DNA of 41,544 nt from Fragilariopsis cylindrus CCMP1102 (lineage: Eukaryota; Bacillariophyta; Bacillariophyceae; Bacillariales; Bacillariaceae), in contig FMBT01000587.1 of the NCBI GenBank assembly GCA_900095095.1, positions 1-41,544 on the forward strand, read 5' to 3'. Within the stretch, counting starts at the first letter, position 1. Each line of letters begins with the position of its first letter. Of this stretch, positions 5,290 to 35,140 are shown one piece after another. The position numbers and the translations under genes were made by a program. Below the pieces are notes generated by a model, which worked only from the letters and a program-made list of their open reading frames with translations, was not told the origin of the DNA and did not search any database.

Positions 5290-5977
5290 CGTGGTAAATA
5301 TTGTAAACGGTTCTCGTTATTATTTTTTGTGTGTTTGCTGTGTCTACTTTATTTTCGTGCATATTTTCTGTGCCTTTTTTGGGTAACTTTTCTTGTTCGC
5401 CGTGTGAAATTGCATACAGGTTGCTCGGTTGGAGTTACGGTATTTGTTTTGTTAAAAACTGTTTTTATGGGGCCGTAACCAGTCTGAGAATCATCCCAAA
5501 TTCTCTTTGATTACTGGAACATTAATGAAGCAAGAAGATGAACTGCACCCACGTGTCATCACAGTAAACACGAATGAAATTACAGAGCGTTTGTAGCACT
5601 GAAAAAATACGCCTGCGACAGCTCAGCATATAACCATAGTGTCTTACGTCATCACAAAACAATCCATATAGGTTAAAAACAAGAAAAGACAAAAAGTCCT
5701 TCCGCCCTATCGCGAGTCAGTCGATCCCCTTCGGGATTTCGTTTAGTGTTTTCACCCCCGTTGGCCAAATTGCCATCCATATTTCATCCCGAACAAGGCT
5801 ACAAGTACACAGTGGAGAAATCTCATGCCCACCCATCCACCACCTTGAACTTTCCAGCGACAATCTGGCCTCACTCACGATTGTCCGTTTTGCACTGTCA
5901 TTTTGGCCGCCGACTCTGAAAGAATGGAAGATCGTACATAGTGTTATATATCATTACGATTCATTGGAACGCTTGAA
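5290..5977. other. intergenic, no gene recognised
   Basis: The stretch upstream of HSF carries a CACGTG core within CCCACGTGTCATCA near 5549, a possible bZIP or bHLH site. Positions 5700-5930 are richer in GC than their surroundings and include GATCCCCTTCGGGAT, a small hairpin, but show no convincing open frame. Confidence 0.4.
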
Positions 5978-6450
5978 TCACCGAACACACCACACCACAA
6001 CGGAGACGCAGACGTAGACGAGGATACAGTAGACGAATAACAAGACACTGATGACAAGATTTCTTTGGCGACGTTCGCTACTACTACTACTACTACTACT
6101 TGTATTACGATGAGCAGTCTCGAAAATTTGCTACTTTTCAAAATAAACGGTGGCGACGATGGCGTAGACGACCTATACTATTCTCCTGACTGTTATTGTA
6201 TTCGTCATTATTGTTGTCTACATCATTTTTCTTTCTACCACCATTATCATTGTCGTTTTCAAATTGGCAGAGAAAAATAGGAGGAGGAGGAAGAAGAAGA
6301 TACCGCCGCTGAAGCTGAAGATGGCGCTTGCGCTGATTTTCTCCTTGTTTTCGGGTTTCAAATGTGACGATGTTGAGGACGATGATACCAATGAATATGG
6401 TGCCAACAATAAGTAGCAACAACTGTGATTGTTTAGTGCGAAGATTTCAT
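5978..6450 (-). CDS. doubtful small membrane protein
   Basis: Reading the minus strand from the ATG at 6450 with one or two frame changes gives a hydrophobic segment (LLLLIVGTIFIGIIVLNIV), a basic/Asn-rich linker, and a second hydrophobic segment (LVISVLLFVYCILVYVCVSV) that follows a Ser run and ends at a stop at 5978. Two such segments at this spacing would suit a small two-span protein. Simple repeats in this stretch also create hydrophobic reading frames by chance, and no homologue is recognised, so this is a weak call. Confidence 0.25.
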
Positions 6451-7365
6451 TTTCTTGTCTTTTTAATGGTCGTAATCCAGTACTACGTGGTTATAATACT
6501 GTAATGGGCGAAAACACATTCTATGTTGGATAGAAATGCTGCAATTATTAGCATAGTAATATTTTTCTTGTCTCGAGGTGCAACGAAGTCGTTAAGACAC
6601 ACTGAACGAAGAACCCGACGACAATCGGTAGAGCATGGCTGTTTGTGTCACTAATAAAGAAGGCCGACTCGACCACTGTCACTGCGTGAGATTTCGTATT
6701 AATTCTTCTTTTTTACCACGATAAAATAGACAAATTAGAACAGTAACGTTATGGTTCGGTTCGAAAAAAAAAATGAAAAATGAGACAACACTCAATGTCA
6801 CAAAAGAACATCGAAAAAAGAGCCATACAATTAATTGTAGATACAATTGTAGAGCGAGGAGCGACAAAAAAGAAAACATCAAGCCGGAACTTTCAATCAA
6901 GGCAACACTTCCTCCGTGCAACGGATATTTGCGAACGGGCGAATGGCCTGAAATTTTGACGCGATAATAGCACGGAGAACCTTAATAAAATCTACACAAT
7001 CGTAGGACAAATTAAAAGATAAAATGTCGTCATCAGTCTACGCTTTGAAATGATAACGAGACACACAAAAATTGACACAGCATACTACAGAAAATAAACC
7101 AAACAGGGAAGAAAATTTTTCCCAGGATGATATGGTTGTTGCATTGATTGTATTTTAAATAAGCAGCAGCTACCTTATTCATTATTTATTTAACTATTCA
7201 TTCATCCATAAAAGTACCCATATCTAACATAGTTAGACAACTTCATTCTTTATCTGTATGTATGTCGTATCCAGCCTGTAACAGTCGGACGAAATCGAAA
7301 TTGAGGACGATACAGTACTGAAGGGTATAATTATCTGCTGCACTCGCTTACTAGGATCCAAACAA
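6451..7365. other. AT-rich intergenic region
   Basis: Nothing convincing is seen on either strand. Short open frames here look random. Confidence 0.5.
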
Positions 7366-7497
7366 TTACGAAATCGATGCAACCATGTAGGTCAGAGCAG
7401 ATGTAACAGCCACAAACAACACGAGGGTTGTTTTAGTATTATTTCTTGATACGTAGATTGTACTGCTGGTACCAGTACTACTCTCTGTACTGATGTT

Positions 7498-7529
<32 letters not shown>

Positions 7530-9063
7530 CAGGAGTATCTGAAACAATTGAGTTGTCCGATTCTTCTTCTTCCTTCTCATCTAATGTTGTAGTAGGAGAA
7601 GTACAACCACATACGTCACGTGCATTTTCACGTAATAATTGACATTCGTCATCTGAAATAAAACTCTTCATAAACTTAAATAATCCATCAATACAACGTA
7701 TTTGTTCATTATTCGTACCCAGAAACATTTCATCAGGTAATTTGGTCATTCCATAATTACCACTCCCATTATCCGTACCACATATATTACATCCACCACT
7801 ACAGGGTAAACTTTTAGAAATGAAATAATCATTTACAAAGGTTGTTATTCCTTTTGTTGATGAATTACCATCTAATATTCCCAAAATTGTATTACTACAA
7901 TCATATAATATATCTTCTTTTTTGTCTACGAATATACAAGAATTACATTCAAAATCATCCACAAACATTTGACATTTTCGAATTTCATTATCATTATCAT
8001 CATCCACGGTGTTGTCAGCAGCAGCAGGAGTGTAATCAGTCATGCTAAAACAATATGAAAATATATATGGACTTTTTGTATAATTAGAACATACTTGTAA
8101 AGTGAATGTACCATCCTCGTTTCTTCTTCCACTACTTGTTTCTAATCCACAAATATTAATAGTTAAATTATTATCTGCTGGACCACATAATCCATCAATA
8201 TCCTCACAAAATTCACCATCACTGTATGAACAATTAAATGATTGTGGTTGATTATCATCATCATACGTACAATCACAAGATACATACTCGCTGCTGCTGC
8301 TGCTGCTGTAACCAGTAGTAGTACCACAAGAATAAGTAAACAAATTGAAGTAGTCCTCCGTACTATAAGACAAATCATAATACTCAGCTGAACAATCTAC
8401 CATTGATACTTGAAATTTTTCTGCATCAACGACACATGATGTTTGACATAGACTGCGCAAACATAAATTTTCTAATACATTAAAAATGTTAGAAACATCA
8501 GTATCATCATCATTATTTTCATCATCATCCATATCCAACAAATGGATTTACGTCACAATCCAATAATATACTAAACGGATACCTGCGTCTGCCTGACATA
8601 CACTGCATTCAAGACCTGCAATAGTACCACAAACCTATAAACATAAGATTGGAATACATTTATACACATTAATATCATCATCAAATTGAAGTGATCTAAC
8701 ACTTTGTTGTTGCTGATCCTGATACTGTTGCTGATCCTGTTGCTGACTCGAGTTATTATTATAAGCAAAAACCAAGCGCGACGTTTCCGTTGTCGCTACC
8801 AACATTCCAAGATCAGTAGTGTTAACATTAACGTTAACGTTGCCTATTCCATTGCCGTATTCTTCTTCTTCTTCTTCTTTGACAGCACGACGATCATCAT
8901 CCTCATGAACTATCGTATTAGTAGTAATACTGGTAGACGACGATAATGAGTTAATAGCATTCTGACGACGACGGCGGCGACGGATTTCGAGTAGGAGAGA
9001 AGATACAGCCGCTGATGCTGGCTGACACTGATGCTGATGCTGACACTGATGCTGAAACTTCAT
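7366..9063 (-). CDS. Cys-rich protein with C-terminal hydrophobic tail
   Basis: The 3' exon (8541-7366) is a long clean frame with about 30 Cys, many spaced as in disulphide-rich secreted proteins (for example CSGGCNICG and VCGCTS). It has several N-glycosylation sequons (NNLT, NYTK, NSST, NNTK) and ends in an Ala/Ser/Thr stalk plus a hydrophobic tail (TLVLFVAVTSALTYMVASIS). That tail would suit a GPI signal or membrane anchor. Upstream in the same frame, after a stop at 8635-8637, lies CGTIAGLECSVCQADAG, then a second stop near 8541. Before these is a Gln/Asp/Asn-rich exon with its first ATG at 9063. The in-frame stops imply one or two short introns that I cannot place, or breaks. No clear signal peptide is visible, so the true 5' end may differ. 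Family unknown; a cell-surface role is inference. Confidence 0.6.
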
Positions 9064-9384
9064 CCTTGTTGTCGGTCGTCTCGATAATAATGATGACGAT
9101 GATGATGATGATGATGACACAGCAGACGATGATGTCAATGATAACGTAGCACAACAGCTGTGATGGTTGATTGTGGAAATTTCATTTCTTTGTTGTCTTG
9201 TTTTATAATCGTAGTAACTATATATGTGGATATATACTGTAAATTTATGTAATGTAAAATTATGGCGATACTGTAGCACTTTTATGCTGGATAGCCAGTA
9301 GAGCGAGATCTTATGCGGAATTTCGCAATTGTGTTAATGTTCTTTTTGAAACCGAAGGATACCATAATTTGCTTATAGTACTTT

Positions 9385-9446
9385 CGAAGGTTACCGTTCA
9401 AGCTGTCGATCAATCAACGAAGGTCACCGTTCAAGCTGACGATCAA
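9385..9446. repeat. 29-base direct repeat, two copies
   Basis: Units 9385-9413 and 9418-9446 share CGAAGGTnACCGTTCAAGC and continue to a common GATCAA, with two mismatches and a four-base spacer. Confidence 0.8.
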
Positions 9447-9593
9447 AAAGATTATGATTGGTTGGGTCGTCGGTGATCCATTGAACATGTCATTATCCGA
9501 CATCAAACGACGACGAAGTATCTGCATTGGAACTTGTAAGTTATCGCAATTTTTTTAATAGAAAATTATGGTCTCTCTGTGTTGTTGTTCTTT

Positions 9594-9620
9594 TTGTTCT
9601 TTTTGATAAAAAAAGAACAA
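9594..9620. repeat. A/T-rich inverted repeat
   Basis: TTGTTCTTTTT faces AAAAAGAACAA around a short centre. A related TTGTTCTTTTTGATAA string occurs again near 9878. Confidence 0.6.
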
Positions 9621-9718
9621 CCACTTCTTTCAAAAAGAAAGTCAAGATAAAATTTATCATAGGAAGGCGCAGTTAGTGGCAACGCAAAAAAAAGAGATTT
9701 CACTATCACGACACAGGC

Positions 9719-9772
9719 TTACTCACTTGCTCACTCACTTGCTCACTCACTCATTCACTCACTCACTCACTT
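9719..9772. repeat. CACT/TGCTCACT microsatellite
   Basis: Imperfect tandem tetranucleotide (CACT)n interrupted by TTG and ATT. Confidence 0.8.
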
Positions 9773-10039
9773 ATCAAAAATCGTCAAAAGTTGAAGAAGC
9801 AAGCGCCAAAAGAGAACAGATAGATAGATGATATATAATATTATAGAAAATTGTAGTCTATCGGAATTTCAATCTGTGTTGTTCTTTTTGATAACGGACG
9901 ATAACAACATATATGCTGTGTACTAGCTACTGCAAGCACTTTTTCATTTTGGAATTGGTGTGTCTGGAGAATAAAACTGAGGATAGCAATCGCTTATCAT
10001 AATGAAACAGGAGTGAAACCGGTGTTCGTTTGGGTTTGT

Positions 10040-10811
10040 TCAGAGTGACTTTATCATGCTTACCGGCAGTAGTACTTTTAGAGACGGCGATAGACCTGCA
10101 AATGTAGCATTTGTGGCTCGTGCTACCGGTCCAGGTTCAATTACTTTCTGACCACGATCATCACCATCATCATTATCATCATCATTATTATTGTTATAAT
10201 GCGCATCAACATTGTTTTGTATCTGTGCCAAAGCAGATGCTGCATATGGTCCTTGACGTTGTAGCCAATTTTGTGTAAGTTGTTCTACTGCCAATCTCTG
10301 CAAGGCAGATCTTCGAACAGCACCTCTAGTTTCCATCTTACGACGAGTTTCAATTGTATAAGGAAGGTATGATGTAAAGGACAAGCTAGCTGTTTGATGA
10401 TTAGGCTACTATGTGTTACAGTAGGACTTGTAATGATATGGTGATATGTTGTTGTACTGTACTTTTTCCTATCCATTTTGGTCCCGTCTTGTGGGAACTA
10501 CTCTAGATGGTGCATCAATTGTTTGATCGAAGTATATTGACTATAGGAGGAGATCAATTCCATCATATTATGGATAGTACCTTGTTCGTATTGTTTCTTT
10601 AGATATTTAATTTTTCCAGCTTTGGTAGGAAGAGGAGGTATAGGGGCCAAAGAAAGAGGAAGGGGCCAACAAGATAGTTCATAGTTGAAGAACTCGTGCA
10701 AAACTCATAGTAACCATCAAATAATGGACGTGTGTGTGGAGTGCTGGCAAAAGAAGACTGGGGAGATGATGAAGAAGTATGGATATTCAACGGCACTTTT
10801 GGAACCATCAA
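10040..10811 (-). CDS. hypothetical protein, frame-broken or spliced
   Basis: Three blocks look coding. The first (10811-10690) is Ser/Pro-rich and leads into RPLFDGYYEF. The second, in another frame, gives HEFFNYELSCWPLP, then PPLPTKAGKIKYLKKQYEQG and ends MHHLE. They join if one T is missing near 10695. The third (10384-10040) is SYLPYTIETRRKMETRGAVR followed by a helical RSALQRLAVEQLTQNW and an Asn/Asp tract. An intron probably lies between 10500 and 10390. A GTAAGC donor near 10060, after VLLP, suggests a further exon that I could not place, and sequence upstream of 10811 may also be coding. I do not recognise the family. Confidence 0.45.
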
Positions 10812-11061
10812 TATATTTAGAAATAACTATAAAGTCACATTTACAACTATTCGTCTTACTCGTTTCTTGTTCAACAGTAATGGTTCAGGTCACATTTGAA
10901 TAGATTTTGACGTAATATTAAAAATTTAAAACCAGAAACATTGGTTATGCATGAACTACATATATTTAAATCATATAATTAACAAGGCTCCTAATTTGCC
11001 ATACAAGTCAAGTATTACAAAATATTATATAACCTCGAATCTACTTTTTTCTTTCTATACA
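10812..11061. other. short AT-rich spacer
   Basis: Lies between the 3' end of the pirin gene and the unknown gene, both on the minus strand. It may include a 5' exon of the unknown gene; nothing else is seen. Confidence 0.4.
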
Positions 11062-12291
11062 TCACAGTTCATCGTCACTTTTCTTTTGTTCTTTTCCCTC
11101 CTCAATTCCATTTGTTGTTACATTTGGGGATGATTCAATTCCATCTAACAATGCAAAGCGGCCCTTATTCTGAGAAAAGATCATGTCATCTCTTGGCCAT
11201 GGCCAGCCCCCGAATTGCGTTTTCCTGTAATCAAAGAATGCTTGCTTAATTTCTTGCTCTGTATTCATCACAAATGGCCCATGCTGGACTACTGGCTCAT
11301 CAATGGGTTTACCTTGTAGAACAAGAAATTCTGTTCCATTCTTAGCATCGATAGGTAACTCGATCGAGACATCCTTCGTTGCATCCAACGTCATACAACA
11401 CTTTTTGGTTATAATCTCTCCATCAATTTTTACACCATCAAGACCATTCACTAGGTACAAAGCTCGATTTATTCGAGTTTTTTCACCCATGTTTGCTTTG
11501 GGAAGAACAATGCGACCTCCTGGTTCACAACAATAAATAATACGGCAACATCGTTTTCAGGATTTGACGCCCAAGAATCTGGTGGTGGAGTACCTGCGTC
11601 CTTTTCTTCGATAAAATAATCCCCTGCCCATACCGTAACAGTCGATAATCCATCGTCCGACTTATATTCGGGTACATCATTCGACCAGAACATAGCAAAG
11701 CTCGGGTCGACCATCTTACTTGCTTTGGGTAAGTTAAGCCAGATCTGAAAGAATGTAGTTAAGTTAGGCTTATCAGCATTCACGAGAGGGAACATTTCAC
11801 CGTGAACAACTCCCTTTCCTGCAGTCATCCATTGAACATCACCTTCGCCGTACCTTCCAGCTTTCCAGTGGAATCAGCATGGTCTATATTACGAACGACG
11901 TGTGAGCAAAAGACGTGTGAGCAAAATAGTATCGGAAGAGTATAGCGTTATCGTTGAGTAGCTATCACTCAATAACAACAACAACAACAACAACAACAAC
12001 AATAACGTACCTATGATTCCTTTTATTGTGGCTGTGATCGTCTCGAAACCTCGTGTGGATGTTGAGGAAAACCAGGTACTTGATCACCGTGATACATACG
12101 ATATGGAGCATCGGATTGAAGTCAGCACCATTACCTCGTGTTAAAAATTCCTGCTTGCCTCCCGAAGGATCTTCAGGATATTTATCTACGTGAAAAACAC
12201 AGAAAAGAAATGGATCAGGTGTTGGATAGGGACCAGCTAAAGGCAGAGCCACGGTTTTAATGATTGAATTTTTCATCCCTGATAATCTCAT
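11062..12291 (-). CDS. PIR: pirin family protein (bicupin)
   Basis: Two exons, 12291-12011 and 11883-11062, with a 127-nt GTACGT...AG intron. The N-terminal cupin shows DPFLFCVFHVDKYPE, then PGFPQHPH-GFETITATIKG, and QWMTAGKGVVHGEMFP; these hold the His/His/His/Glu iron-binding set of pirins. The C-terminal cupin ends with EPVVQHGPFVMNTEQEIKQA, a pirin signature. Reading it through needs one missing base restored near 12112, 12052, 11863 and 11530, giving about 368 residues, longer than the roughly 290 of human pirin because of an insert before the metal site. Pirins are nuclear redox co-regulators or quercetinase-like dioxygenases in other organisms; the role here is not known. The last residues are KKSDDEL, like an ER-retrieval tail, although no signal peptide is visible at this start. 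Confidence 0.9.
11884..12010 (-). other. intron in pirin gene
   Basis: Donor GTACGT at 12010 and acceptor ending at 11884 on the minus strand; removing it joins KGII to DHADSTGK across a split Asp codon. It carries an (AAC)n tract at 11975-12001. Confidence 0.8.
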
Positions 12292-19036: not shown

Positions 19037-19388
19037 TTCGACTTTTAGCATAGAGGATACGATCAAATCAAGAAAACAAAACAGAATTGATGTCAACATT
19101 GAATCGACGCACATACTGTATATCGAAGTTCAACCGACACCCGACTCACCCGACTCACTCGACTCACTCGTGCGTAAACCAATAATCTCAATCGAATTCA
19201 ATCAAAAATATAAAAATACACTGGAATAATCGCAAAAATTCAAGATTAGGATAGATAGTAATAAATCAAACACACCAGCAGCAAGTACAAGTTAGGGGAG
19301 TACAACAACATCCAGAAGAGCAGAGAAATGTAGTATTGCATCTGCTATTTGTTCTAAACAAAAACAAATAAACCACATTTTCGAAAGG
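19037..19388. promoter_or_regulatory. divergent intergenic region
   Basis: It lies between the starts of the unknown gene (-) and the AlkB-like gene (+). It has a CGACTCAC-type short repeat at 19134-19172 and no clear TATA element. Confidence 0.4.
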
Positions 19389-20819
19389 ATGAAAGCAAAG
19401 CGTTATGGCAGTGATACTAAACTTTCAAATGTGATTTCCTTCTTGCGTCGTTTTGGATGGTTGCATGTTACTGTGTTTGCAGTAGTGACGGTATCAGCAT
19501 TTTCTGGGAAAACGGGAACCGTTGGTCATCGTCGTAATAAAAAGTCGCCGTCAGTACAAGTGCAGCAGCAGCAGCAGCAGCAGCCGTCACTACATACTAA
19601 ACTTCAGAATTGCTTCACTCCAACTAGTATTCTGGAGAATATAGCTGTTTTAGTAACACCGAAAGTAGACCCCTCTGCATCACTATCAAGCCTAGCTCTG
19701 ATTCGTCTATCGAAGCAAATCATCGCTTTGGACAACGAAAACAATGAATACCTTATCAATGACAACAATAAACAATTATGGAAGGAAGGATTAAGAAATT
19801 TAGTATCATGCTTGGCATCATCAAACTGGAAAGCCTCTCCAAAAGCACTTGAAACAGCTGTTGAAGGTGTTAAGGCCGCGTCGGTGATATCTCGACTGGT
19901 GTCGTCTGATTATCTTATATCATCTAATAATGACAATAATAATGGAAAAGTTTGGTGGGAGCCTCTTGTGGAGAAACTCCACGAGGAAGCAGACGATCAG
20001 CTCGTACGTATGATTCAACCACATCAGTTATCAGGTATAAAGTTCTCCATTGATTGTATTCAGCTTTCATCATCAACGAAACAAGATGCCAGTGACTTAT
20101 TGTCGTCGCACCGACAACAATATTTACTACCACAAAGTTTGCAGATCGCGTACGACAATTTAAATCTGCCCTTTTCGGTCCGGCCCGGTTTTTTAAATGG
20201 AAATGATGATGATGATGATGATGATGTTGATAACAAACATAATAATAATTTGTTTACAGTTGCATCCTTTGTAAAGCAAGTAAAGTTTCAAATCGAAACA
20301 ATTCAGACAGCCACCAACCGTACCGTTGCAGAAAGACGACAAACTGCCTGGGAGGGAGATGAACATGTTGAAAACTTTGAATATTCTGAAAAGTCTATGC
20401 GTCGATTGCCTTGGTCAGACGTAGTAGCTAATGTACGAGATCGTTTATATAATGAAACGTCTCACTATTACGATGGTTGCTTACTTAATTTCTATCCTGA
20501 CGGTGATTCAGCTATGAGGTATCATATTGACCCCGACCAGGGAGTTCTATGGGATTATGAAACTGCTGTTGTCAGTATTGGAGCCACGCGCCGTTTTTCC
20601 TTTCGCGAGTCTTCTAGTGGTAATGGATCTAACAAACCTCATGTGTTTGTGCTGATGAATGGAGACGTGACTGAAATGTTTAATGATTGTCAAGAACGCT
20701 TCCAACATACCGTTCAAAAATCATCAGTCAAGGGAGAATCGGCATCCCGTGTGAGTCTTGTCTTCAAAAAGACGTTGGGTTACTCAAATTATAAAAGAGA
20801 GAACAAAATCTCGAACTAA
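19389..20819 (+). CDS. AlkB-like 2-oxoglutarate/Fe(II) dioxygenase with targeting peptide
   Basis: An unbroken 476-residue frame. The C-terminal third carries the dioxygenase core: LLNFYPDGDSAMRYHIDPDQ with the metal HxD (His379, Asp381), SIGATRRFSFRE, VLMNGDVTEMF, the distal His440 in FQHTV and Arg454 in SRVSLVFKK for the 2-oxoglutarate carboxylate. This layout is that of AlkB family enzymes, which remove alkyl groups from nucleic acid bases or from proteins; the substrate here is unknown. The N-terminus has a hydrophobic segment (WLHVTVFAVVTVSAF, residues 24-38), and VSAF-SG resembles the diatom plastid cleavage motif, so plastid import is possible. The 270 residues between the presequence and the core hold Gln, Asn and Asp runs and no known domain. 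No introns or frame breaks. Confidence 0.85.
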   Translation: MKAKRYGSDTKLSNVISFLRRFGWLHVTVFAVVTVSAFSGKTGTVGHRRNKKSPSVQVQQQQQQQPSLHTKLQNCFTPTSILENIAVLVTPKVDPSASLSSLALIRLSKQIIALDNENNEYLINDNNKQLWKEGLRNLVSCLASSNWKASPKALETAVEGVKAASVISRLVSSDYLISSNNDNNNGKVWWEPLVEKLHEEADDQLVRMIQPHQLSGIKFSIDCIQLSSSTKQDASDLLSSHRQQYLLPQSLQIAYDNLNLPFSVRPGFLNGNDDDDDDDVDNKHNNNLFTVASFVKQVKFQIETIQTATNRTVAERRQTAWEGDEHVENFEYSEKSMRRLPWSDVVANVRDRLYNETSHYYDGCLLNFYPDGDSAMRYHIDPDQGVLWDYETAVVSIGATRRFSFRESSSGNGSNKPHVFVLMNGDVTEMFNDCQERFQHTVQKSSVKGESASRVSLVFKKTLGYSNYKRENKISN

Positions 20820-23332: not shown

Positions 23333-26300
23333 ATGGTCTTGGCCAGTCCTTCCACCGATGGTGGAGAAGGTGTTGTCACAAAAAAGAAACTTGCATTGGA
23401 GAAAAGTGATGGTCGAAGACTTGTGGAATATTTGGTGGTTGTGTCTTCGTTGAGTCGGGAGGTACCGCCATCATCTTCCGATGACGACGACGTCAATGAT
23501 GGGAAAAAGAAAGAATCAGACAATAACAATAACAATGGCGGCGATGATCAATGGAAATTATCGACAAATTTTGACGATGAAGATATAGAAATTGTTCATG
23601 CAGGTTTTAATCCAGTCATTACAGCTCGGTATCCACAATACGATCATGAAGATAATCCATTTGATGCAAATGTATCCTATTTTTGTCATACTTCCGGTTC
23701 GATTGAATTGAAAAAGGAACCGTTCATGCCCAAGGTATGTACTACAGTAGTACGAACTATAGCAACGCATTTTTTTTTTTTTGCGTTAATTTAATGGTAT
23801 TAGTGGAGGCAATAACATAAAATTAACTTTGTAAATGTTAATCATCGTTGCTGCTGCTGTTGTTGTTGTTGTTGTTGTTGTGATAAGATTCATTCATTCT
23901 CTATTCCTTACACGATTATCGTCTCTTCAATTGTTTTGGCTTTGTTCGCAACAATTTAAAAATATACTAATAATAGATTCATTACTTTGTGGCGACTGGA
24001 GAGACGGGGAAAAAAATGTATGGTACTTGCTTAACGTTATGGGAACCGACACAGATTCCTGGAAGGAAAAAGAAACGTAAAAACAAATCTAAATCAAATT
24101 ACAGTAACGATATTGAATCGGAAGAAGAAGAAGAAACAACCAACCTCGATGTCTTTCTACCAAAATGTGTTGTATTGATGTCAACTTATCCATACCTAAT
24201 GGCATTCCGAGAATATTTGAGTCAATTAAATCGATTGACCAAGATTGGTGATATGACACTCCCCATCGAACGATACATTACTAATATTTGTCTTGAAATT
24301 CCAGCACCGCCTCCTGGTTCCTTTTCGGTCCAGACAACAATCTTGGATTCGATCATAAAAATTTGGTCCCCACCACACAATCAGCCAATCGCTTGGGTTA
24401 GTCTACCCTTTTCCGATTTATTCTCCTGTTTGGACATTGATAATATCATTTTAGTTTGGCATTGTCTTGTTTTGGAACGGCAGGTTATATTGACGTCGAC
24501 ACAACGTTCTATCTTAACAACATGCGCGGAGATTCTCCTTTCGATGCTATTTCCGATGAGATGGTCACATGCATACATCCCACTCTTGCCAAAAGCCCTT
24601 CTTCCCATCCTCTCAGCACCCATGCCCTTCTTTTGTGGTATCGATAAGGCCAGTCTCGCAGAGGCATTGTATGACTTAAGTCCCGAATGTGTGGTTGTTG
24701 ATTTAGATAAGAATTTGGTGACGTTAGGGCCTGAAACTGAACCACTACCGCCGTTACCGCCCCAACTAGCCTCGAGTCTTAAGTCACAACTTGAGGAGAA
24801 TGTTGGTATGGTCTTCCGTGAGGCTAGGTCGTTAACAAGAAAAGATGATTATTCCGATAGCGGGTCACATCTCCCGTCCCATGTCAAACAAGTGGCAGAG
24901 GCTATGTGGGAGGGTAAACTTAGTCTCTTCGACGAAGCATTCCATTTGTATTTCACTCCCGAAGAGTCTAGAAAGAATAGGTTGAATGGAAATGACACAT
25001 CGGGTATGGAATGGAGTGACCGAGATGCGAATGATCAGGCGCGTATCATGGCAGCATCAGGTGAGGACAAATCATTTGCTTTACGTAAGCAATCAGAGTG
25101 GGATGCCGTCCAAGAGGGATTTTTGGACACCTTCGTTTATTTGCTGAGAAATTATCGCAAGTTTTTGGTTTTCCCCTCGAAGCATAATGAAGGAAACTAC
25201 GGAGGCGCAGGTTTCCGTTCAAAGGAATTCGTTGAAAATCAACGACTTGATATGCGTGATTTCTTAGAACAATTCGTAAAACCCAAATGTACGACAACTT
25301 CGTCACCAAACGACTATGTACGTAATATTGATGGAACAAAGAATGAGGTTGGCGTAATACTATTATTTACTTACCTATCTATTGCATGGTTCCGTTCCCA
25401 CTACTAATACATATATATATATATATATATATTTCATTTGCCATATCTTATATTCGTTTCCGTTTCAACTTACATAACATGATATTACATAACAGACGGC
25501 AGTGGTGAATCGGATGTTGCATTTTTTGATTTAGCGGTAGATCGATTTTTGAAGAGTTCCGGTCTCTTATCAATGTGGATATTGGCGGTCGTTTGTTCCA
25601 GGCTGCTGGAATCTCAGCACAAAAGTCTCGAATAGTTCAGCTAGTAGTGGGATGCGTTCGAGTATTTCCGGCTTAGGATATCAAAAAGCAACAGAACCTC
25701 TCCTTCAGAGTGCTCGTGTCCACCGCAAACTGAAAACGATTGTTCCTCCAGAACCTTGTCAAGAAGACTTACCGCATATTTCTGAAGGAGAGGGTGGCGT
25801 TATGGCCGTTTCCGATCAGCAGACCGTAATATCAGACGATAATAAAAGTGTGGGTTCGGCCAGTACATCTTCTCGCGCAAGTGATGCCAATGCCTACAAG
25901 AGTGTACAGACAAGGCTGCAGAAATTTTAGGAAAGTCTAGTTTTCGATACAAATACGATACATTCCCTTCAGAATTCCGTGAAGAATTTTTTTCGGCTCC
26001 TCGTCCCCTTTCAGCTGCTGTGCTTGCCGAATTTGATCGACAGAAGAAGGATGCCGCACAATTTCGTCGGAAGAAATCTGCCTTAAAGACAAACGACAAA
26101 AATAGTCATCTCCATCGTAATCAATCTAAAGTAGATAATGTACGTCAAGTTTTGTAAATGCTTTGTTTGACCTATCGATTTTAGAACATGTCACTCAACA
26201 TTATTTTTTTCCCTCATTTTTTCTTCTTTCTTTCAATAAAACGATAGGAAAAACCTCCTTCACCCGAAGTTGCCACTTTCACCGTTTTTTTCATGGCATT

Positions 26301-29880: not shown

Positions 29881-32800
29881 TCATTTAGCTATCTTTCTTT
29901 TACGATATGCTAAATAAGCAAGTTCAATTGTGTGGACGCTACGAAGCACTTTTTTCCATAACCGTAGGCGCTCAATTCGATTTCGCACATCAGATCCGCT
30001 ATAGTAAGAGGAAGAACGAATAAGAAAGATAAAATTAGTGCTTTGAATGGGAGAAAAATAGGACTACTTTCTGTATCATATGTATCAGACATATTATATA
30101 CTCACCTTATGGGAGATGCTGTTGTGGCGATTCTAACGATGCTGTGGGTTCTGTCAATACGGTATGACCACAACCCGAATGATATAGTTGCAAAGAAGCG
30201 TTCAACACGTTTAGCAATATGATGGAAGAAGACGCACATCCATACGAAACGTTGCATTGAAGCGATTCTCGTTTCATATAGCTCCTGTACGAAATGCTGT
30301 TTTTTCGCTAATTCAAAGTCCATATCTTTAATCTTGTTTTTGCCAGCATTGTATTTCCTTAAACGTTCACCAAAGTACCTTTCCGTCGATGCCTCAATTT
30401 GGATTAATCCACGGTCATCGCGATTGCATGGAGGGATCTTGATCAGTTCATCATAGCCAGAATTCTGAAGGAAAGCGACAAACTGATTGTAATCCACCTC
30501 GCCTGTGTGATCAGTGTCAGCCTCCTTATACATAATTTTAGTTTCTAGTTCTGTCAGGGAAGGATCGAATGCACCAAACCCCATAATAAACTCATCTTCT
30601 GTCAAAATCCCCCTACCGTCTTTGTCAAATCTATTAAATAGTACGTGTAGTCGATCACCAATTTTTCGATCACGAATGGCACCAGCAACGATGTCATCGA
30701 CAGAGTAGGAATCCTGTGTCTCATCTGAAGTTTCGTCATCAATTGTGTCTCTGTTACTCTTTTCCTCGTTTATACCCATGTATGCACCAACCAGAGCGTG
30801 CGATGACCTCTTTTTGTGAATCTTCACCGAAATACTGCAGTCCATCATTGAATGAATCGACATAGATAGCCCATTTTGAGGGCTTTTTCTGCTGAAACAG
30901 GAGAAGAGATTCTTACAAGTCATCCACATATTATTACGATAGTGTTGTGTTACTGTCACGATCGAGTCATCGTCGTCGTCTTCTTTTTTCTCGCGTATGG
31001 CCTTTGCTTCATCGGCAGCATCGGTTTCAATCAAAAGTCTTTCGCACAAGAACAAGGGGCGATGCCGTTTGAGGAAAATTCCTGTTTTGGACAGATCTAA
31101 TTTAAATGGATTGTGGCCGATTGTTAAAGATTCACAAGTTCCGCCATGACTTTGAATACTACTTGCTTGGTTACAACTGAGACACACAGCGCCTTCAGCT
31201 GTTGCCAATGCTGACAATCGACCGTCGGGTCGACCAAAGATTGCTAATGTACCTCGAACAACCCTACAAATATATTTATTTAGAGAGAGAGAGAGAGGAA
31301 ACAGAGAAACGAGACAACAATTTTAGAGAAAAGAAAACACGACGATGTTGAGGAAAAAGTATCTAGTTTTCATGTATTAATTTAAACACACAAAAAAACT
31401 GAACACAAATTTGATTGTATTCAGATTTCATCCAAAAAAAAAGCATCTTCTTACCTATGAGTATGACGGTGCACAAAATGGTCAGATGGATTTCCACTCA
31501 AGACATTTAGGGATGCGATGCTATAGGATACGGCAAAACATTTGCTTAAAAAGGCATCAGAGCATTGAGAAACCTTGTTTTATATTGAAATAGACGATAC
31601 ATACAACAATTATTAGAGAGAAAAAAAGGGGGGGGGGGGGGGATGTACAAACAAACAAAGCAGTTTTTGCATACCTATCCCGTTTCGTTACCATACGTAC
31701 CCAAGGAATATCTCCGATAACAATCGTTCGCCCTACCATTCTATGCCGAAGATTACGCCCCTGAAAAATACGAATGATGGTGATGCAAATCTGGGGAAGC
31801 CAGAAGTAGATACACGAGTCAAGGAACCTTACTAAGTACGTAATGATTCCTCCTTCTGTGGCACCAAAAGCACTACCTATAGCTGTAGCCAAGGGCCATC
31901 CTGACGTAACAGTAACGAAGATGTAGATGAAGCACATAATATAGGATCTTGCGCCTTCAAGAATATGGTCCCCCCATAAATTTCCAAGCTCACGGAGGTT
32001 GCTTAATAGTGGCGACACTCGATCAAGAGGATAACCAAATGCATTAAAGCCAACAATTTCTACCAGAGCCTCAATATTCATTTGATTGCACCTCTCAAGT
32101 ATCTGGATGTCCTGTTCGGTGATTTGAGCTTTGGTCACTCTACGAAATTCTTGATCGCTTAAAATTAAGACACTAATGTATTCGAAGAGATTGGTCAGTA
32201 GCTGGTGTGTAGCTACCACAGATACTGAGCACGGCTCGGCTGGTCTCATTCCTACTTCTGTTGAAAAAATTCGTTGATTCATCAAGTATCCACTGCTACC
32301 ATCCATTTCATCGATCATTCGCAATTGCTTACCGATTTGTGTATCCCATTCTGACGTCACTACAAATATGTTTGGTGTTGTAGATTGCAGAAGATTAGAA
32401 CAAGCAAGTGGTCCGAAGGTACCGCCTGAATGACTTACAATAATTACAATAGAATCGTGAATATTCTTAGTTTGGGGTGAAGAAGGAAATCCCAATGATG
32501 GTACGGCAATTTCTTGCCCGTACAACCCAAGTAGCTTGTTGCTGCTGACTGCCTCAATGGTGAGTTTGGGAAAAGACTTTTTCAAATCGCTTGCAAACTG
32601 CTCAGCAAGATACAAAGAGACTTCGCACCCTGTTAATAGAATATCAACGGACATCGAGGGAACTGTACCAGCCACGTGCTGTTCTAAACGTCTTCGGAGG
32701 CACCGAGACAAATTGAAGGCTGTTAATCTATTCAAACTACTAGAAGCCCTGCGAGAATGCCAATCATCTTGAATATTTTTACATACACTTGGAATGTCTT

Positions 32801-35140
32801 CAATATCAGTCTTCACTGGGTCTGTGGTGAATTCTTTTAAAGGCTGAATAAGATAGTTTCCCGACAGTTTAGTCATTCGATGAAAAAGTTCCGAATCAAT
32901 CTTAGTTGATTTAGATTCTTGATGCAAAATTGCTGTTATTTTCCCGTTCATTAAATGAAATTGTTCGAGATGACTATTTGGGAACGATACAGGAGGCGTT
33001 TGATACTTCTTTACGCCCCAGTCTAGGACAATTATTTCCCCTCCTAGATCATCCAGGTCGAGTCGCGTTGATTCGTTATCAACTTCTCTGGTTGAACAAT
33101 TTGTACCTTGCAGCCTGTCGTTGTTATAGAGTCCATCACATGAGGCATTCATTCCAGCCTTTACGGCTGCTTGCTCTGATCCATAACACACTAGATCCTT
33201 TTGAGGGTAAAATGCAATGGATATGGTTTGCCCTCGGGCTGCCATGCACATTTGTCGGTGCGAATCAAGATTGGATGTCACGCTGATCCCAAAGCTTCCT
33301 TTCGCATTTTCCATGAAGATTTTAGTAGTCATGAATAAATCATTATCAAAAAAGGCATCAATAGTGATTTTGCAAAAGGCTCGAAGATTTTCGTCAAGAG
33401 ATTCAATGTCACTATAATGGTATCAATAACAGTTGAATCAATAAAATGATCGTCATCGTTTTTGTCATCGTATATGTCGGTGTCATCTTCCGTAATCTCA
33501 ATTAGTTTATTCTTTTCAACAGCTTGACTATTATCGGGAGCGGGAACAACTTTACTTGATTTCTTACGAATATTTAGTGCTTTCATTAGTGGTCGTAAGC
33601 GCTCAATTGGCCAGGTTTGAAATTCTTTCAAAACTAATTGCACCAATTTGACTCGAGCTTGTAAATTGGAGCTAATATTTCGTAAATTGGTAACAGAATT
33701 TGTACTGTTGTGACAGTACTCCTCTAAAACCTTTTCAAATGCAATTCCTATATCTTCCTCCAGGTACTCCTTATAAGGAGGGAAGAAGAATTTTCCACCA
33801 TTATTCGCTGCTGTCATTTTCATACTACAATTTGACGATTCCATTCCTAGGGCCAAAGCGTATCGTGCACTCAGTCCAAATGATCCTTTCGATCTTAAAA
33901 TATCGACCATACCAGCAATAGCACAAGAATCGACAGAGGCCGGTGTTTTTGTTTCTGTTACTACACTCAACCAATCTTGTATCGTCTCCAACTCATATAA
34001 CTTGCCATGACAACGATAAAAATCGAAATCCCCATTATGAGTAATGAAATTTTCAACGGTGACAACAGTCGGCTTTAGTGGGACTGGGACAGCCGGTGAT
34101 GTGTTTCTTGTTGGAATACCGCCAACGTTATCCATATAATAAACCCGTCGTGGAGAGGGTGGTGTCCATTGATGAGGATGGGTTCCGTCTAATGTACTTA
34201 ATGAGCTTGTTGCGAATCTGGTGTGGCCAACCAACATACGCGGCACAAAAGTGTTTGCATCAACGTTTCGAGAAGTTGTCATTTTTCGTAGATCCTTTTC
34301 TACCCGATTCCGTACGAGTTTACTAAGATCAGTTCGTTTTTTATTCACGACACGTGATCGAACCGCCTTCGAGCACAAAGTCGTTTCCTTGTTGTTGCTT
34401 TTCTGTTTACTACTTTCATCAGTGGGATGGTAAGTGACACAACCACCTGACTGCGCTCCTCGCATCATAGTCACTTCGATCATTTGCTGTAATGTATCAA
34501 GTGCAACGGCCTTAGTATGATGATCTTGTAACCACCAATGATTCAATAATATGATACCAAAGTTACCACAATAGAAGCATAAAAGACCTGATTCAGTTGT
34601 AGAGGATGGAGTACACAGTGAAAGAAATGGTTTTAATCCAATCAAATCGGTTGATATAGCCTCAAATGCCGTAACAAGAGCAGCCAGTAACATACCACTA
34701 GATGAAATGGCAGTAATGAAGGAGTACTGACTTTTATCACTGCTACTGCTGTTGTTAGAATATTGAAATAACCGATTAAATCTAGCAGCAATCAATAGTA
34801 CAGCCACCAGGAGGACACTAAAAATCCAACCGGCATGTCTGACGGGTCCTTCTATTTGTGATAATGCATTCGGAAGACTACATTGCCTCCCTAGTACAAC
34901 CTCATAGAACAGACGGAACCATTCATCTTGAGAGAATTGTATAAATGGGTAATCCAGCCACCAGGCAGTAATAAGATGAGATACTTCATGAACAATCCCA
35001 AAGAAAATATACCATATGAATATTTGTTCCCAAGAAGCGCAGTGATGATGGGACAACAAGCGACGGTGCTGCCGCTGCAGCAGCGGTGAACAACGATGCG
35101 ATGGTGGTGGTGGTGGTGGTTCCATATATCCTATTATCAT
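29881..35140 (-). CDS. membrane protein fusing HExxH segment, glutamine amidotransferase, SIS domains and EF-hands
   Basis: Exons 35140-31701, 31573-31455, 31263-30106 and 29998-29881. With one missing base restored near 33411, the total is exactly 1612 codons including the stop. Order: (1) membrane segments, the first with IVHEVSHLITAWW (HExxH at residues 51-55), then WIFSVLLVAVLLIAA and more; (2) a class II amidotransferase domain starting at CGNFGI (Cys191), with MMRGAQSGG, VGHTRFATSS and THNGDFDFY; (3) sugar isomerase domains with IIVSHSGGTFGPLACSNLL and IFVVTSEWDTQIGK; (4) hydrophobic segments (YIMCFIYIFVTV; IYFWLPQICITIIRIF); (5) two EF-hands, FDKDGRGILTEDEF and ADTDHTGEVDYNQF, the second with Gln at loop position 12; (6) a basic tail. 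Domains 2 and 3 are those of glucosamine-6-phosphate synthase, but the family's SGET is SGGT here and Cys191 is not N-terminal, so GlcN6P synthesis is not assured. A calcium-responsive membrane enzyme or sensor is inferred. Confidence 0.88.
29999..30105 (-). other. intron 3 of the amidotransferase fusion gene
   Basis: GTGAGT donor and CTATAG acceptor, 107 nt; the join restores a basic C-terminal tail ending LAYRKRKIAK. Confidence 0.75.
31264..31454 (-). other. intron 2 of the amidotransferase fusion gene
   Basis: GTAAGA donor after HRHTH and TTGTAG acceptor before VVRGTLAIFGRPDGR, with a split Arg codon; 191 nt. A (GA)n microsatellite lies at 31282-31295. Confidence 0.8.
31574..31700 (-). 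other. intron 1 of the amidotransferase fusion gene
   Basis: GTACGT donor at 31700, AAG acceptor at 31574. On the coding strand it contains a C15 tract followed by T7 (G15 at 31628-31642 on the + strand), an unusually long polypyrimidine tract. Confidence 0.8.

Follow-up and report, generated by a model that had tools for sequence, protein, structure and literature searches.

The stretch of DNA analysed here (the window; 41,544 nucleotides of contig FMBT01000587.1 of the alga Fragilariopsis cylindrus CCMP1102) carries on its minus strand, at 29881..35140, a gene of four exons for a protein of ~1610 residues related to glucosamine-6-phosphate synthase (GlmS/GFAT), the soluble gate to amino-sugar synthesis. 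The alga is photosynthetic, as its 104 matches to light-harvesting proteins indicate. As far as comparison or prediction shows, the product is laid out as a membrane domain at the N-terminus, a glutaminase of class II whose glutamine pocket is complete, a first SIS domain (SIS1), a membrane hairpin, and a second SIS domain (SIS2) followed by a GlmS-like tail. Unlike GlmS/GFAT (TIGR01135), the algal protein has a membrane domain of ~190 residues before the catalytic Cys and a membrane hairpin between SIS1 and SIS2, and its isomerase residues are apparently replaced. Whole colinear homologues were found in cyanobacteria. Residue counts refer to 33 aligned rows, i.e., the alga and a family set of 32 full-length, non-identical cyanobacterial frames of 1196–1315 residues from stop to stop.

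The gene was delimited by splice junctions, translation, and the colinear homologues. The start codon lies at 35140 and the stop codon ends at 29881, and reading of the splice sites gave three GT-AG introns of 130 nucleotides (intron 1, 31545..31674), 191 nucleotides (intron 2, 31264..31454), and 107 nucleotides (intron 3, 29999..30105). Gene, strand, and coordinates agree with those of an earlier note made from this sequence alone; the 1612 codons counted there are corrected to 1611 including the stop, i.e., a chain of 1610 residues with a single terminal stop when one unread residue is placed at a frame offset in exon 1. Simple repeats occur within the introns (a G run at 31625–31643 in intron 1, a GA tract at 31280–31300 in intron 2).

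The N-terminal membrane domain (residues 1–190; 34571..35140) was recognised by three hydrophobic segments and by helices in the model of a cyanobacterial homologue, and contains an HEVSH motif (34976..34990). It is followed by Cys191 (34568..34570), the counterpart of the GlmS Cys1 nucleophile according to a structural match via the cyanobacterial member L018. The catalytic Cys, an RG motif, and both His of this first membrane motif are invariant in 33/33 rows. The class II glutamine amidotransferase domain (residues 191–767; 32841..34570) and SIS1 with its leading helices (residues 768–1045; 32007..32840), both with approximate limits, precede the membrane hairpin (31752..31964), which is supported by hydropathy, model helices, and a homologous cyanobacterial hairpin. 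The first part of SIS2 (31107..31742), split by introns 1 and 2, was placed by alignment to the cyanobacterial members; after an inserted segment with EF-hands come the last SIS2 helix and the GlmS-like C-terminal tail (30108..30293). The final residues (29881..30107, split by intron 3) have no clear cyanobacterial counterpart in an alignment with nine members shown. At a simple hydropathy threshold of 1.5, four segments passed (residues 40–58, 103–121, 141–159, and 1060–1078), the last being one of the two hairpin helices. The membrane segments noted earlier are borne out both by this and by their retention in the cyanobacterial family, and the same conservation led to rejection of the view that this is a soluble GFAT to which segments were added by chance.

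Cyanobacterial homologues and the GlmS/GFAT fold

When bacterial genomes were scanned with the protein of exon 1, matches were obtained at seven loci (in Pleurocapsa, Hyella, Synechococcus, and a genome of the Xenococcaceae), five of which carry frames of 1,222–1,251 residues; the frame at L022 reaches the end of its locus, the frame at L020 stops after 618 residues, and L024 represents another contig of Hyella. Near-identical repeats (L035, L036, L037, L038, L057, and L064) and shorter frames (among them L047, L049, L052, L053, L060, L061, L063, and L077) were left out of the 32, and L020, L024–L026, and L028–L034 were not entered in the family set. The N-terminal algal piece matched 30/32 members at an E-value of ≤ 1e-3 (21–30% identity, best 5.7e-22), and the C-terminal piece matched all 32 (26–31% identity, best 7.5e-78). 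The algal protein and the cyanobacterial family share the Cys, the glutamine pocket, a membrane HxxxH, the hairpin, and the SIS2 tail, all in colinear order.

The distribution of the family in cyanobacteria is scattered. Profile searches gave matches in 23/388 genomes of one cyanobacterial order and 13/399 of another, counts which include the genomes of the starting loci as well as a small number of fragments; in a sample across the phylum, matches were obtained in 3/386 genomes by profile and in 2/292 by single-sequence search. Searches of viral contigs confirmed no relatives, and those of plasmids and phages gave none for L018. L018's own genome (G001) has a second family copy on contig C58 (L030), which is short at the start and split by a change of frame close to the end, and contig C85 of G293 has a broken family gene (L033/L034), whose SIS1 part is in frame with an unrelated-looking N-terminal stretch while its rear part lies in a separate frame.

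Because whole colinear homologues occur in cyanobacteria, the architecture of membrane, amidotransferase, and SIS parts is not specific to stramenopiles, a possibility that the earlier note had raised; only the EF-hand insert is absent from 32/32 members. Homologous sequence also continues past the EF-hands in 30 of the 32 (blastp beyond the insert, E-value ≤ 1e-3, best 4.6e-9), which makes two separate genes unlikely and supports the earlier view of one gene. An artefact of adjoining genes was ruled out by homology on both flanks of the insert. In a midpoint-rooted tree of the 33 rows, all the cyanobacterial members grouped apart from the alga, whose branch measures ~4.8 changes per column; the exact place of the alga is unsure because this branch is so long. 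Recent transfer from a sampled cyanobacterium is unsupported, as the alga lies outside all 32; plastid descent and an old transfer are both conceivable. No description of such a protein was met in literature searches, which were not exhaustive.

Assignment to GlmS/GFAT was not attainable from the algal sequence by itself. Single-sequence searches of the algal pieces against Pfam, NCBIfam, and PDB sequences gave no amidotransferase or SIS family, with EF-hands as the only Pfam result, and GlmS models did not match the three algal pieces at E-values up to 1. The 32 members had no Pfam family at an E-value of 0.01. In NCBIfam they matched two GlmS models only, in 22/32 and 16/32 members (best E-value 6.9e-9), far under the cut-offs; L018, for instance, scored 23 bits against a curated cut-off of 381, and the full-length cut-offs of the GlmS/GFAT models TIGR01135 and NF001484 were not reached. 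PDB sequences searched with L018 returned no GlmS and four weak unrelated matches (best E-value 0.043), and a profile of the 32 members gave no match there at an E-value of 1. The amidotransferase and SIS parts were instead confirmed via the cyanobacterial homologues, profile comparison with GlmS, and predicted structure, which agree on a relative of GlmS/GFAT as first proposed. The predicted fold comprises glutaminase, SIS1, and SIS2 in GlmS/GFAT order, so that the SIS fold, on which the earlier claim depended, is predicted. In structure comparison the GlmS fold spans the cyanobacterial member end to end, and the catalytic Cys of L018 was the first residue aligned, pairing with residue 1 or 2 in GlmS/GFAT chains of solved structure.

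Catalytic residues, EF-hand insert, and membrane motif

The glutamine pocket, shaped in GlmS by Arg, Asn-Gly, and Asp, is complete in the alga and in 28/32 cyanobacterial members. The sugar-phosphate loop of SIS1 retains Ser-Gly in 33/33 rows and the full SxSGxT in the alga (SHSGGT, 32418..32435). The isomerase residues compared are Glu488 and Lys603 (E. coli GlmS numbering). Alignment by eye, which is not confident in SIS2, placed A and A of the alga, and S/A/G and M/L/A of the 32 members, at the Glu488 and Lys603 positions; a Lys and a His of SIS2, which perhaps answer to K485 and H504 of GlmS, are invariant in 33/33. Loss of the usual isomerase chemistry is likely on these alignments, and not firm, since the comparison is weakest in SIS2. 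Ordinary GlmS was found in 59/59 cyanobacterial genomes searched (57 above the model cut-off, G001 included), and the genome of the alga likewise encodes an ordinary GFAT, in a frame that covers both SIS domains and the rear portion of the glutaminase. The production of hexosamine that the earlier note had envisaged is thus doubtful, as two isomerase residues seem replaced and an ordinary GFAT is present in the genome. The ordinary GFAT occurs in two copies, on contigs C60 and C314, with equal PF01380 scores; the copies are probably two haplotypes.

The EF-hands are carried by a segment of 271 residues (residues 1239–1509; 30294..31106), delimited by alignment count and blastp matches on both flanks. 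It is read as an insert into an older protein because these flanks match while 32/32 cyanobacterial members have just 23–39 residues there, none with an EF-like loop. Loop 1, DKDGRGILTEDE (30591..30626; PF00036, PF13405, and PF13499), is canonical with E at position 12, and loop 2, DTDHTGEVDYNQ (30483..30518; Pfam), has Q there. An acidic residue is expected at position 12 of EF-hand loops, and only loop 1 has one. Two EF-hands are upheld by scores above the Pfam cut-offs, with PF00036 matching two stretches (E-value 3.8e-9, 35.9 bits against a cut-off of 25.4) and PF13499 reaching an E-value of 1.7e-7 (32 bits against 30). They do not simply follow the enzyme part, as the order of parts in the earlier note had it, and sit inside SIS2, just before its last helix; the calcium control proposed with them stays a hypothesis, given the Q of loop 2.

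Fusion of an EF-hand segment to a protein of this kind of ancestry has a parallel. Tic20 of Saccharina/brown and other red-plastid algae is described as a cyanobacterium-derived membrane protein fused to a non-cyanobacterial EF-hand segment (PMC6720183). The two cases are alike in kind, as an EF-hand graft in stramenopiles on a membrane protein of cyanobacterial ancestry, and differ in that Tic20, as described there, is a protein-import channel of another family with N-terminal EF-hands (PMC6720183). To the pattern reported for Tic20, the present gene would add a further case among algae with red-type plastids (PMC6720183).

The first membrane motif reads HEVSH in the alga, HELGH in L041 (G473), and HGxGH in the other 31/32. 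An HExxH in a membrane helix likens the algal protein and L041 to Peptidase M50/site-2 proteases, whereas in 31/32 cyanobacterial members the Glu is replaced by Gly. With the Pfam M50 model, L041 reached an E-value of 0.98 (9.1 bits against a cut-off of 27.2) and the alga gave no match. A later Asp before the Cys, the third motif residue, is kept in 32/32 cyanobacterial members; the alga, as aligned here, has Ala in its place. Identity of the HEVSH domain as an M50 protease was considered and is unsupported, there being no M50 profile match.

Proposed function and competing explanations

The algal protein is best read, with a rough probability of 0.6, as belonging to a hitherto undescribed branch of the GlmS/GFAT fold that is embedded in the membrane and shared with scattered cyanobacteria; it most likely acts as a membrane enzyme or sensor responsive to glutamine and sugar phosphate, not as a hexosamine supplier. 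Class II amidotransferases need the Cys at the mature N-terminus, exposed by autocatalytic removal of a few residues (PMC9140057). Cys191 is internal, with ~190 residues including the membrane domain before it in the encoded chain. The chain would be cut just before this Cys, which would free the nucleophile; glutamine could then be hydrolysed at the freed Cys, and the ammonia passed to the SIS pair, or the SIS pair might read glutamine occupancy. The SIS pair would bind a phosphosugar at the membrane face, presumably without the usual isomerisation of fructose-6-phosphate, and calcium at the insert may tune the SIS2 domain. The mechanism may be either that of a membrane amidotransferase whose acceptor has changed or that of a glutamine/sugar-phosphate sensor.

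Several points weigh against this reading. Four of the 32 members (L073–L076, one clade) lack the pocket Arg, Asn, and Asp while keeping the Cys and the remaining architecture; because the pocket residues are lost there, glutamine hydrolysis is not essential across the family, and the sequences suggest a sensor or pseudoenzyme role for this clade. SIS2 alone was nearly without profile–profile signal (E-value 0.032, with the lowest control at 0.059), and its first part was modelled at a predicted local distance difference test (pLDDT) score of < 50, both of which weaken the reading of the isomerase residues. The neighbouring genes vary by clade, and cases within a clade are not independent, so that relatedness inflates their counts. 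The gene has a frame offset in the assembly. Finally, the cleavage before the Cys, calcium binding, and any ligand are hypothetical.

The strongest alternative, which we still consider rather unlikely, is a regulatory pseudoenzyme, i.e., a membrane receptor for glutamine and phosphosugar that signals without forming a product. It would account for the clade that lost glutaminase residues and kept the rest, for the apparent replacement of isomerase residues in 33/33 rows, and for signalling-type neighbours. The latter were seen in 20 gene contexts, and all context counts cover these genomes only. A Crp-like regulator adjoins the family gene in 8/20 contexts (L116–L123, about 5900–11500), is transcribed in the opposite direction wherever its frame was called (7 contexts), and is a possible direct regulator of the family gene. 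A class III nucleotide cyclase lies nearby in 6/20 contexts, and 5/20 have a membrane protein that contains a PAS or GGDEF-like part, the GGDEF Pfam match being just below the cut-off. In L108, a kinase with a periplasmic-binding part precedes the family gene, and kinase-like frames were noted by eye upstream in L018 and L019. No same-strand neighbour recurs across clades in the 20 contexts, as would a conserved operon, while some recur within a clade. Against a receptor without catalysis stands the pocket itself, whose completeness in 28/32 members and the alga despite great divergence suggests selection for catalysis.

A true membrane-bound glucosamine-6-phosphate synthase, i.e., a second GFAT for hexosamine supply at the membrane with a calcium switch, is less probable again. 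The end-to-end GlmS fold in the cyanobacterial member, the full glutaminase pocket, the SxSGxT loop retained in the alga, and the invariant SIS2 Lys and His (which may be K485 and H504) are what such an enzyme would show; on the other hand, the positions aligned by eye to Glu488 and Lys603 hold A/S/G and A/M/L in all 33 rows, GlmS model scores are far under the curated cut-offs (as for L018), and ordinary GlmS/GFAT coexists. More speculative, and quite improbable as a whole, is a membrane receptor-enzyme on the GlmS fold that reads glutamine and phosphosugar on one face of the membrane, and in the alga calcium via EF-hands inserted in its sugar-binding half, with a membrane domain related to site-2 proteases controlling the cut that frees the Cys as a proteolytic switch-on.

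Should the preferred reading of a glutamine- and sugar-phosphate-responsive membrane protein be correct, it would be a new use of the GlmS fold, in a membrane-embedded form whose nucleophile is internal, whose isomerase site is apparently altered, and which in one alga carries an insert with EF-hands. It could then link calcium, nitrogen (glutamine), and sugar status directly at a membrane. The cyanobacterial members are tractable subjects for testing it.

Frame offset, second copy, and neighbouring genes

The frame offset lies inside exon 1 at about 33417..33420 on the minus strand, where two open frames overlap. Contig C796 carries the front of the gene a second time (98% identical); this copy shows no break at the offset, but at other places it contains a short duplication and single-base offsets that are peculiar to it. 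No copies beyond these two were found by protein and DNA searches of the alga's genome. Fourteen indels were counted in the gene between the copies. Bases were compared over 32935–35140 minus 34131–34159, where C796 is duplicated; rates of base difference outside the gene were discarded, as that part of the alignment has no end anchor. Nineteen single-base differences were obtained, 13 of them at third codon positions, with 12 silent, 7 nonsilent, and no new stops. If 74% of random changes are assumed to be nonsilent, so few nonsilent differences have P ~7e-4, i.e., they fall below the expectation without selection. The comparison points to the frame offsets as draft-assembly errors, and a damaged or decaying allele is not favoured over this. 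The rival explanation, that the gene is decaying or is a chimera of the assembly, could cite the offset in the window and the offsets and short duplication in C796; it is very improbable, since colinear homology is seen to either side of both the offset and the EF insert, the splice sites are clean, and the differences between the copies are mostly third-position with none a stop.

Neighbours of the gene in the window code for a protein with an S4 domain and one with a U1-type zinc finger, with no evident link to it. On the plus strand, the window also carries a protein assigned to the Pfam family 2OG-FeII_Oxy_2 (19296–20816) and a DENN-domain protein (23977–25404).

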